Shown: one piece after another, positions 20,240-22,943 of the stretch | Position numbering within the stretch: the first letter of the stretch is position 1 | Layout of the letters: each line of letters starts with the position of its first letter | IMG/VR virus record: IMGVR_UViG_3300032323_001607 | Location: 1-23,413 of that record | Direction: 5' to 3' (one strand) | Origin: a virus | Length of the DNA stretch: 23,413 nucleotides | Made by a program: the position numbers and the translations under genes | The notes under the pieces: model-generated | Databases searched by the model: none | The model's input: only the letters and a program-made list of their open reading frames with translations | What the model was told of the DNA's origin: nothing

Positions 20240-20504
20240 CGACTTTTTCGACGAGGCAGAGCTGGACAGCACCACGCTCATCGAGGTGCGACGTGTTCGC
20301 CTCGAGTCACTTATGCAGTGCACCGTCCTGTGGGACGACGAGGCGACCCTCGACGCCATCATGTACGGGCCGATGGATGACCAGACCTACCACCAACTAA
20401 ACCTGCGCCTCATCGCGCACCTCGACCGGCCCGACTCGCGCGGCCGATGGACACAAACCCAAATGGCACGTTTTATCAAATCCTTTACTACAAATGGAGC
20501 TTAA
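20226..20504 (+). CDS. Early protein, unknown
   Basis: A 92-residue protein with an acidic start (MSELDDFFDEAELD), a charged middle and a basic end (GRWTQTQMARFIKSF). It overlaps the membrane protein gene by 14 bases. Composition changes to AT-rich only at its last few codons, where the next gene begins. No family recognised. Confidence 0.65.
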   Translation: MSELDDFFDEAELDSTTLIEVRRVRLESLMQCTVLWDDEATLDAIMYGPMDDQTYHQLNLRLIAHLDRPDSRGRWTQTQMARFIKSFTTNGA

Positions 20505-20637
20505 TAAAAAAAGAATAATAACACACACTTTTAAAGTCGATTATGAAACTCTAAAAATGGCAAAGCAAAAAGCAAGTGAATTGAACATGACAGTTTCGTC
20601 ATTTATTTATTGGTGTATAACAAATCAATTGAAATGA
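20494..20637 (+). CDS. Ribbon-helix-helix protein, AT-rich
   Basis: A 47-residue protein (MELNKKRIITHTFKVDYETL, then KQKASELNMTVSSFIYWCIT). The pattern of a short strand (THTFKV), a helix, an N/G-containing turn (LNMTVS) and a second helix fits Arc/CopG-type DNA-binding proteins, which act as dimers and often repress their own promoters. By hand count 39 of 144 bases are G or C (27%), against about 60% around it, so it is probably a recent acquisition. It overlaps the upstream gene by 11 bases and the SSB-like gene by four (ATGA), so it is fully embedded in the operon. Confidence 0.7.
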   Translation: MELNKKRIITHTFKVDYETLKMAKQKASELNMTVSSFIYWCITNQLK

Positions 20638-20984
20638 AACTAACGATTAACGGCACCGTCAAGTCGGTGCAAGAGCCCAAGACCTACCCCTCTGGATTCA
20701 CTATCTGCGACGTGCTCATCGAGAGCGGCAGCAACGTCTACCCCGTCACCTTCAAGAAGGACGACGTGGACGAAGCCCTGGCACTGGTGCCCGAGCACCC
20801 GATCACGCTGGAGTGCTACCTCAACAGCCGGGAGTGGCAGGGCCGCTACTACGTCGAGCTCAAGTACGCCGGCAGGCCGGAGGCCGCACCTGCTCCGGAG
20901 GCGGCCAAGAAGCCCTTGGCAGGACGCACCACCAACCGCATGGCGCCACCGTCAACCCCGACGCCCAATGACCTGCCCTTCTGA
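20634..20984 (+). CDS. Single-stranded DNA-binding-like protein (DUF3127 type)
   Basis: A 116-residue protein with an OB-fold-like N-terminus (MKLTINGTVKSVQEP, FTICDVLIE, YPVTFKKD, LECYLNSREWQGRYYVELK), a Pro/Ala-rich linker and the ending PNDLPF. The strand pattern matches the DUF3127 family of Bacteroidota, and a short acidic-hydrophobic tip is typical of SSB proteins that recruit partners. ATG 20634 overlaps the upstream stop (ATGA) and is preferred over a TTG at 20610. Confidence 0.78.
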   Translation: MKLTINGTVKSVQEPKTYPSGFTICDVLIESGSNVYPVTFKKDDVDEALALVPEHPITLECYLNSREWQGRYYVELKYAGRPEAAPAPEAAKKPLAGRTTNRMAPPSTPTPNDLPF

Positions 20985-20994
20985 CGAAAACTAC

Positions 20995-21228
20995 ATGATA
21001 GTGAGCAGCATGGAAGCCTTTTTGAACAAACACTACGGCAGCCTGACCATGGCGGCTGGCAAGCTCAAGGTCAGCCCGCAGACCATTACGAACTGGCTGA
21101 AGCGGAACCCGCGCGGGCTGCTCAAGCACATGCCGACCATGGTGCAACAGTGCAACGTCACAGAGACCCAAATCATGGGCGAGGTGCTGTATCACGAGGA
21201 GTACCTGCAGAGCATAGGACAACGGTAA
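20995..21228 (+). CDS. Helix-turn-helix DNA-binding protein
   Basis: A 77-residue protein with a helix-turn-helix at residues 15-40 (SLTMAAGKLKVSPQTITNWL), in which A-x-x-L-x-V-S-x-x-T-I-x-x-W is the standard spacing. It lies directly before the replication initiator and could regulate the early promoter or take part in initiation. ATG 20995 is chosen; ATG 20968 would overlap the SSB-like gene by 17 bases and remains possible. Confidence 0.72.
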   Translation: MIVSSMEAFLNKHYGSLTMAAGKLKVSPQTITNWLKRNPRGLLKHMPTMVQQCNVTETQIMGEVLYHEEYLQSIGQR

Positions 21229-21231
21229 ACC

Positions 21232-21990
21232 ATGGAACACGCCAACGGCATCTGGATACCAGGCGAGATATGGGAGCTGGACCTGCCGCCCCTCCACCGG
21301 GTATTCCTTGCGCGTCTGATGGCGTTGAGTAAGCAGGACGGTGCGAGCTGGGCTGGGGACGAGTTCCTCGCCCAGTCGCTCCGCTGCACCCCACAGCACG
21401 TGCGCAAGATGCGGCAGCAGCTGGAGGCCAGCGGACACATCGTGACCGACGGCTACGGCTACAAACGTCGGCTCCATGTCGAAGTTGCGCCTGTAGTTGC
21501 AAGCAACCAGAGAAGCAAGCAACCAGAGGCGCAAAAGTTGCAACCAGAGGCGCAAGAGTTGCAACCACAGTTGCGCCAAGAAGCAACCACAGTTGCGCAG
21601 AGTATAGAAGAGAATAGATATAGTAAAGAAGTAGTAAAGACCACCGCGCGTGCGCGCGAGGTTGTTTGGCCTTTTGATTCTGACCAGTTCATGACTGCCT
21701 GGAAGGAGTGGGAGGCCGATCGCCGCGAGCGCCGCGTCAAGCCATACACCACCCGCGGCCTCCAGACCGCACTACACCGCCTCCAACAAATCAGCGAGTA
21801 CAATGAAGGAATCGCAATCCGAATTATCTCCCAGTCCATCGCCAACGGATGGCAGGGGCTCTTTCCTCTTAACAACAAGCGGGGAAATCATCAGCATGAC
21901 AGACCACGAGGTAAGGACATCACTCCGGACGACCTTGCGCGCCTTGTGGCAAAGCGATACGGGCCTCGCTTTCCCCAAAACCACCAGTGA
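21232..21990 (+). CDS. Replication initiator, lambda O-like in organisation
   Basis: A 252-residue protein. Residues 1-78 form a winged-helix domain like those in phage initiators (IWIPGEIWELDLPPLHRVFL, DEFLAQSLRCTPQHVRKMRQ). Residues 90-128 are low-complexity and Gln-rich (QPEAQKLQPEAQELQPQLRQ) because the DNA carries iterons. Residues 145-225 form a C-terminal domain (FMTAWKEWEADRR, RLQQISEYNEGIAI, ISQSIANGWQGLFPL) whose SIANGWxGL motif recurs in Bacteroidota phage initiators and resembles helicase-recruiting DnaD/DnaT-like regions. It is followed by a loader-like gene. The family call is by pattern. Confidence 0.8.
   Translation: MEHANGIWIPGEIWELDLPPLHRVFLARLMALSKQDGASWAGDEFLAQSLRCTPQHVRKMRQQLEASGHIVTDGYGYKRRLHVEVAPVVASNQRSKQPEAQKLQPEAQELQPQLRQEATTVAQSIEENRYSKEVVKTTARAREVVWPFDSDQFMTAWKEWEADRRERRVKPYTTRGLQTALHRLQQISEYNEGIAIRIISQSIANGWQGLFPLNNKRGNHQHDRPRGKDITPDDLARLVAKRYGPRFPQNHQ
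21503..21600 (+). repeat. Iteron array inside the initiator gene, candidate replication origin
   Basis: GCAACCA occurs five times on the + strand at 21503, 21519, 21540, 21561 and 21583 (spacings 16, 21, 21, 22). AGTTGC occurs six times between 21483 and 21596, so dyads such as GTTGCAAC (21537-21544 and 21558-21565) recur. The spacing is about two helical turns, as expected for side-by-side binding of initiator dimers. Confidence 0.75.
21599..21658 (+). other. AT-rich unwinding-type tract plus alternating CG stretch
   Basis: Directly after the iterons, 21599-21640 is about 70% A+T and purine-rich, unlike the surrounding GC-rich DNA. It is followed by CGCGCGTGCGCGCG (21645-21658), a perfectly alternating purine-pyrimidine stretch able to adopt Z-form. 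An AT-rich tract next to iterons is the standard place for strand opening. Confidence 0.6.
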
Positions 21991-22564
21991 CGACATGACC
22001 ATCCGCAAAGCCCTCGAGTTGGGGCCGGAGGACACCAACGCCGCCATCCTCTACACCCTCAAGGAGCTGGTCAACGCCCTCGAGTGCAAGGTGACCATGC
22101 GAACCGCTGCCGACTTCGACGATGCCATGACCGTCATAACCGAGAACTACGGGTGGACCCTTGACGAGTTGCGCCACTGCTTCGCCATGATCCGGACCGG
22201 ACGTTTGGGGCCGGAGAACCTGTACGAGCGGTTCAAAGCCCGTGAGCTGTACGCCTGCATGCGACAGTACTCCGACGAGCGGGCGCGCCACCGCATGCGC
22301 CATGCAGCCAAGTACGACCCCGACGTGCAGGACATCAAGCCAGCCACAGAGCGCACCGCACAGTCCCTGACCGCCATAGCCGACGTCCTCGACCTGCCTG
22401 CCTACAAACCAAAGGCCGGTATCTTAGGGACCGATGGCGAAAGACAGCAAGGCGTGCCGGCAGCTGCACACCAAACCCAAAGCGAAGCCGAAGGGCAGGA
22501 AGCTCACACACGCGCAGGCAGTGAAGAAGGTCGACCTGTGGTTCAGCAAGCTGGTGCGCTATGA
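21896..22564 (+). CDS. Probable helicase-loader analogue (DUF6633-like)
   Basis: A 222-residue protein. The central part (TAADFDDAMTVITENYGWTL, ELRHCFAMIRTGRLGPENLY, CMRQYSDERARHRMRH) follows the pattern of DUF6633-type proteins encoded after replication initiators in Bacteroidota mobile elements: a helix with Y-x-x-x-x-x-D/E, then F-x-x-x-x-x-G-x-x-G, then a helix with Y-x-x-E-R. By position it corresponds to lambda P. The last 44 residues (after about 22434) overlap the NinG-like gene and may be non-conserved. ATG 21896 is chosen; an earlier ATG at 21803 would overlap the initiator by 188 bases. Confidence 0.6.
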   Translation: MTDHEVRTSLRTTLRALWQSDTGLAFPKTTSDDMTIRKALELGPEDTNAAILYTLKELVNALECKVTMRTAADFDDAMTVITENYGWTLDELRHCFAMIRTGRLGPENLYERFKARELYACMRQYSDERARHRMRHAAKYDPDVQDIKPATERTAQSLTAIADVLDLPAYKPKAGILGTDGERQQGVPAAAHQTQSEAEGQEAHTRAGSEEGRPVVQQAGAL

Positions 22565-22943
22565 AGCAGCAGACAGATACGGCAACGCCCGCTGCTTCAC
22601 CTGCGGCAAAGAAGACCACGTCTCCAACCTGCAGGCCGGACATTTCGCCTCTCGCCGCTTTTGGGCTACACGTTGGGATCAAGACAACGTCCGCACACAG
22701 TGTGTTTCCTGCAACATTTACCGAGCAGGAGAACAGTGGCTTTTTGGATGCAATCTCGAACGTGAGCAGCCAGGACGAGCTCATCAGGTTATGCAACGAG
22801 CGCAGCAGCACCGAGCGTACAAGGTGGAAGAGCTGGTGGAGCTTGCATCCCGATACAAAGCGGCTGCTCTCCTTCACGCCAGTATCAAGCGAGTGGTACA
22901 TCAGGCCGGAGGACGAGATACAGGTGCAGGAGTTGAGGAGTGA
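22434..22943 (+). CDS. NinG/Rap-like recombination protein
   Basis: A 169-residue protein with a NinG-like core: C54-x-x-C57 (CFTCGK), H70 (LQAGHF), the RWDQDN segment, and C90-x-x-C93 (QCVSCNIY). Lambda NinG is a structure-specific nuclease acting on branched recombination intermediates. The basic N-terminus (TKPKAKPKGRK) is typical too. It overlaps the loader-like gene by 131 bases; the conserved region begins at about residue 27, so a later start is possible. Residues after about 145 have no family counterpart. Confidence 0.82.
   Translation: MAKDSKACRQLHTKPKAKPKGRKLTHAQAVKKVDLWFSKLVRYEAADRYGNARCFTCGKEDHVSNLQAGHFASRRFWATRWDQDNVRTQCVSCNIYRAGEQWLFGCNLEREQPGRAHQVMQRAQQHRAYKVEELVELASRYKAAALLHASIKRVVHQAGGRDTGAGVEE

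Follow-up and report, generated by a model that had tools for sequence, protein, structure and literature searches.

The stretch of DNA analysed here (the window) is a 23.4-kb (23,413-nt) linear virus contig, possibly incomplete, which carries terminase, portal, tape-measure and NinG-like genes. At the opposite end of the window from the terminase and portal genes lies a gene for an O-like replication initiator, with a small HTH protein encoded just upstream and a second gene, which overlaps the last 32 codons of the initiator in another frame, downstream (Table 1). The product of the downstream gene gave no Pfam match and no informative fold match, and the structural matches of its AlphaFold2 (AF2) model (mean pLDDT 64) all lay at Z 7 or below; the top ones, dynein fragments, were regarded as chance. 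Small helical proteins like it, distant look-alikes, nevertheless recur behind initiators of other types. Further upstream, positions 20494-20637 stand out in this phage of about 60% GC as an AT-rich island, where 42-bp segments drop to 19-21% GC, lower than anywhere else in the window; the island looks compositionally foreign. It encodes a 47-aa peptide similar to ribbon-helix-helix/NikA-like proteins, with a Pfam match (E 0.015) that misses the cut-off.

Table 1. Features of the initiator locus, in positions of the window.
Feature	Position	Strand	Remarks
Cro-like repressor, small HTH protein	21010-21228		weak PHROG repressor matches; just upstream of initiator
O-like replication initiator gene, 252 aa	21232-21990	+	phrog_678 match; AF2 domain layout
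Exchange unit: winged helix, iterons and AT tract	21235-21640	+	sole part of the gene in common with L101, L102, L111 and L112
Codons for winged-helix DNA-binding domain, aa 11-83	21262-21480	+	AF2 H-H-H-E-E; weak Pfam HTH_36; structural matches
Iteron 1, GCAACTACAGGCGC	21487-21500	-	16 to next copy
Iteron 2, GCAACCAGAGAAGC	21503-21516	+	codon frame 2
Iteron 3, GCAACCAGAGGCGC	21519-21532	+	codon frame 3
Iteron 4, GCAACCAGAGGCGC	21540-21553	+	codon frame 3; extended 18-bp dyad 21538-21555
Iteron 5, GCAACCACAGTTGC	21561-21574	+	codon frame 3
Iteron 6, GCAACCACAGTTGC	21583-21596	+	codon frame 1
AT-rich, purine-rich tract, presumed DNA unwinding element	21599-21640	+	26% GC, 81% purine, 42 bp
Codons for helical C-terminal domain, aa 151-205, presumed partner-binding	21682-21846	+	AF2 helices; motif QSIANGWQGLF
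Downstream gene, candidate helicase loader (P position)	21896-22564	+	similar small helical proteins behind initiators elsewhere

The initial annotation had read the gene as encoding a winged-helix initiator. Indeed, the protein matched the curated family phrog_678 ('replication initiation O-like', E 1.2e-12, aa 29-227), and also phrog_270 (E 1e-6), a likeness to the O families that, judged by sequence, is remote; Pfam returned no O family and HTH_36 alone, below threshold. An AF2 model built on an alignment of 19 relatives predicted a winged helix at aa 11-83 (pLDDT about 80-87 over most of the domain), a low-confidence stretch at aa 86-140 (pLDDT about 30-50) that is predicted to be a disordered linker, and a helical domain at aa 151-205. 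The modelled winged helix was matched by DnaD-N (Z 9.8, rmsd 4.3, 94 residues), by LexA (Z 9.6) and by the plasmid initiators 4pql, 4pta and 5kbj (Z 8.0-8.6), which we take to be of the RepA_N type; as far as the model goes, these are matches to a common winged-helix fold. The C-terminal motif is also found in the O-like proteins of the homologues L071 and L087. In five other homologues (L101, L111, L113, L117 and L121) the O-type C-terminus behind the iteron-bearing winged helix is replaced by an alternative domain (phrog_15768/28809, families of unknown function, with a motif around KDWKA).

Both the repeats (codons 86-122) and the AT tract (codons 123-137) lie inside the predicted disordered linker. 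Five copies of GCAACCA (21503, 21519, 21540, 21561 and 21583; spacings 16, 21, 21 and 22), six of AGTTGC (21483, 21495, 21536, 21557, 21569 and 21591) and dyads had been reported in the gene, and all of them are present, with GTTGCAAC at 21537 and 21558. As a repeat unit, the 7-mer GCAACCA is superseded by a 14-bp imperfect dyad, GC[AG][AC]C-N4-G[GT][CT]GC (that is, GCRMC-N4-GKYGC), six copies of which span 21487-21596 at spacings of 16-22 bp. Each dyad sits within about 18 bp, the best copy being TTGCAACCAGAGGCGCAA (21538-21555), and the copy at 21487-21500 matches best on the minus strand. On the plus strand, the degenerate 14-mer pattern has no match outside the array in the whole window. 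The GCAACCA copies occupy codon frames 2, 3, 3, 3 and 1, that is all three frames, and a repeated peptide therefore cannot account for them. We compared the array with two nulls of 5000 draws each, in which either the same 58-residue peptide was recoded with synonymous codons from the phage's own usage or the region's own synonymous codons were permuted. None of the recoded sequences reached the 70 observed pairs of repeated 7-mers (null mean 10, maximum 44), and the five GCAACCA copies compare with a null mean of 0.64 and a maximum of 3; under codon permutation the 7-mer pair score was reached in 0/5000 draws and five GCAACCA in 11/5000. The iteron repeats are neither chance nor a by-product of the encoded protein.

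Synonymous change is suppressed at the site. Among five close homologues, pS was 0.145 in the winged-helix codons, 0.016 in the iterons, 0.000 in codons 124-143 (AT/GC) and 0.169 in the C-terminus, and segregating silent codons numbered 1/59 versus 28/158 (Fisher p 0.001), which, given so few sequences, counts as modest evidence when taken alone. Silent change is likewise missing from the final 24 codons of the initiator, where the downstream gene overlaps. The 42-base AT-rich purine tract of the initial annotation is likewise there, adjoining the last iteron as the lowest-GC 40-mer region of the gene, and codons 124-143 were unchanged in the five relatives. In 16/16 homologues examined, the most AT-rich 40 bp of the gene lie immediately 3' of the iterons, the lowest-GC 40-mer starting level with the last mapped iteron or directly behind it once differing start codons are allowed for. 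The AT tracts of L039 and L008 contain near-exact 12-nt tandem repeats (GATAATAAAGAG two to three times; AATAGAGAAGTT twice), reminiscent of repeated melting elements. An alternating CG stretch, which had been counted as part of the origin, does exist (about 21641-21658) and is not conserved among relatives; homology among those that share the winged helix and iterons stops at 21640, and we therefore rejected the CG stretch as part of the repeat unit and of the origin.

Natural recombinants were found in both directions, initiator type and iteron type being exchanged together. In one direction, L101, L102, L111 and L112 match the exchange unit at 77-80% DNA identity and nothing else within this gene; they have the same winged helix, iterons and AT tract, followed by unrelated or distant C-termini. 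In the other, the type B relatives (L008, L010, L155 and others) are 86-92% identical to the window in DNA sequence across the upstream genes (20634-21230) and again from 21608/21647 onward, with 21231-21607 replaced and without a match. Several of them retain the C-terminus and both neighbouring genes while winged helix and iterons differ. Their array consists of five copies of CCGACACGAACGTC in frames 1, 2, 1, 3 and 2, followed by an AT tract of its own, and this one 14-mer, read in three frames, encodes unrelated peptides. A third group, L113/L114, has a winged helix that is 53-54% identical and iterons such as GTTCCTACAGGAAC, in which the centre TACA is the same and the arms are different; L101 and L114 have C-termini that are 99% identical, winged helices that are 54% identical and different iterons. 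Across sequence pairs, winged-helix identity of at least 0.75 went with a mean of 83% of linker 7-mers in common, and identity below 0.45 with 2%. Where winged-helix identity was at least 0.75 and C-terminal identity below 0.35, 69-83% of linker 7-mers were still in common; where C-terminal identity was 0.72-0.95 and the winged helix unrelated, only 1-2% were. These recombinants are the decisive evidence here, and because of the co-exchange and the frozen silent sites we infer that the winged helix and the iterons recognise each other. The initial annotation had proposed asking whether the iterons are conserved independently of the protein; the three frames, the suppressed synonymous change and the co-exchange all say that they are. 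Its suggestion that the DNA repeats shaped the Gln/Pro-rich linker also fits the predicted disorder and the quite different linker peptides of other types.

Repeats within the gene extend to the wider family. When 46 homologues were tested against a gene-wide synonymous-permutation null (200 shuffles, 5% level), most of them, about four in five, exceeded the null, as a rule in the linker that follows the winged helix. Against this null the repeats of the distant homologues L033, L062, L065, L070, L122, L130, L137 and L148 fell short of the 5% level, although L122 and L130 contain visible dyads. L071 and L087, strong O-like matches (E 5e-62 and 9e-79), carry dyad iterons at the corresponding position, those of L071 (TCCCTCAAACCGAGGGA) being close to the lambda iteron. 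Dyads with A-rich centres are found in other homologues, such as TCGCCAAAATGGCGA (L040) and GGGTCAAAATGACCC (L121), and the linkers of L040, L036, L028, L121, L123 and L117 have an AAAA-type dyad centre with arms CGCC, CCCC, GGTC, CGTC and GCGC. Taken across initiator types, the dyad sequences suggest a conserved centre and variable arms. A profile search of genome contigs with the winged-helix alignment found no host or prophage relative, and annotated phages gave only remote matches to the initiator (best E 3e-5).

In lambda and related phages, the origin iterons lie inside gene O, beside an AT-rich unwinding region. In lambda and the Stx phages (P27, 933W) the origin is in the middle of gene O, with iterons bound by O dimers beside the AT-rich tract, and plasmids fail to become established once the iterons carry silent mutations (PMC7466680). 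In the plasmid pSK41, the winged-helix N-terminus of Rep binds four Rep boxes located centrally within rep, and the central region encoded by the ori is a linker whose protein sequence is dispensable (PMC5703833). The phage studied here has the layout and dyad iterons of the lambda/Stx O/ori, with six copies as in the Stx origins and a C-terminal motif in common with the O-like relatives L071 and L087. It differs from lambda in its iteron, which is unrelated to TCCCTCAAAACGAGGGA, in a winged helix that is only remotely related and in having no recognisable P gene; moreover, L101 and others have a C-terminal domain of a different family behind the same cassette. It resembles pSK41 Rep in its winged-helix N-terminus and in the plasmid initiators among its structural matches, which at Z 8.0-8.6 may reflect a generic winged helix alone; pSK41 is a plasmid, however, not a phage, and RepA_N is not among the initiator's Pfam hits at E 0.01. 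The DnaD-type replisome organizers of Firmicutes phages have a similar wHTH N-terminus and supply the best structural match, and phrog_186 was hit at E 0.003, whereas the C-terminal domain here is O-like; no DnaD domain was hit in Pfam at E 0.01, and the fold search covered mainly aa 6-93.

By analogy with the lambda/Stx phages and pSK41, the site is best explained as a replication origin. We hold it to be very probable that 21483-21640 is the origin of this phage, lying within the codons for the linker of its own O-like initiator. The phage origin and the comparison with lambda put forward in the initial annotation are supported in architecture, namely a predicted winged-helix N-terminus, iterons in the linker, an AT tract 3' of them and an O-like helical C-terminus. 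Dimers of the winged helix would occupy the six dyad iterons of 14-18 bp and assemble into a nucleoprotein complex, the strain in which would be relieved by melting of the adjacent AT tract; the C-terminal domain would then bring in the host helicase, with the overlapping downstream gene perhaps supplying the intermediary. Together, the winged helix, the iterons and the AT tract would move between phages as one self-specific cassette. That replication starts here, and the steps leading to it (iteron binding, melting of the tract and helicase loading, with whatever part the downstream gene plays), are what we infer from the comparisons above. Cumulative GC skew, suggested earlier as a check, gave no clear turning point at the iterons in this 23.4-kb linear fragment (minimum at 22722) and so did not add to the case for an origin.

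The repeats could instead be transcriptional operators, bound by the upstream Cro-like repressor or by the initiator in autoregulation. A small HTH protein is indeed encoded next door, and dyads about two helical turns apart would also suit a repressor. However, L008, L010 and L155 retain the upstream gene at 86-91% DNA identity (20634-21230) with all of their iterons replaced, which makes the neighbouring protein an unlikely partner of the repeats; furthermore, the iterons are 250-370 bp into the gene and adjoin a conserved AT tract. We therefore consider operators in place of an origin improbable, while autoregulation may be a second role of the repeats.

Still less probable, in our view, is that the array arose as a by-product of a low-complexity Gln/Pro/Ala-rich linker, grown by codon duplication under selection on the protein. 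The protein is itself repetitive (QPEAQ repeats) and two of the spacings are 21 nt, that is in frame, but codon duplication is at odds with copies in three frames, frozen silent sites and the failure of the synonymous nulls, as well as with the unrelated peptides encoded by the type B 14-mer and with the predicted disorder of the linker. A different phage cis-site for the winged-helix protein, serving for example partition, incompatibility or packaging, seems just as unlikely. Dyad arrays are generic protein-binding sites, and nothing specific speaks for such a function; the match to the O-like family, the AT tract 3' of the array and a placement within the linker of the initiator comparable to that in lambda and pSK41 speak against it, as does the location of the terminase and portal genes at the other end of the window.

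The origin-inside-initiator layout has long been known; the iteron sequences, the family and its co-exchanged relatives seem to be undescribed. In the open-access literature we found no description of these iterons, this family or the natural swaps, older lambdoid-hybrid and subscription papers lying mostly outside that search, and nothing on iterons in Bacteroidetes phages and related topics. On balance we lean towards a three-part, self-recognising replication cassette of winged helix, iterons and AT tract. Among uncultivated phages it would be passed on by recombination and joined to unrelated C-terminal domains, the break points falling immediately ahead of the start of the gene and where the AT tract ends on its 3' side. 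Since winged helices that are 54% identical keep the TACA dyad centre and switch the arms from GCRMC to GTTCC, these phages may offer a natural code for how initiator proteins recognise their DNA. The lambda-type layout, with new iteron sequences, would extend to uncultivated phages whose relationship to lambda is only remote. The two-way natural swaps offer a comparative dataset for the co-evolution of winged helices and their repeats, which may help to predict the origins of metagenomic phages from their sequence and bears on the odd, fast-changing amino-acid compositions of initiator linkers.
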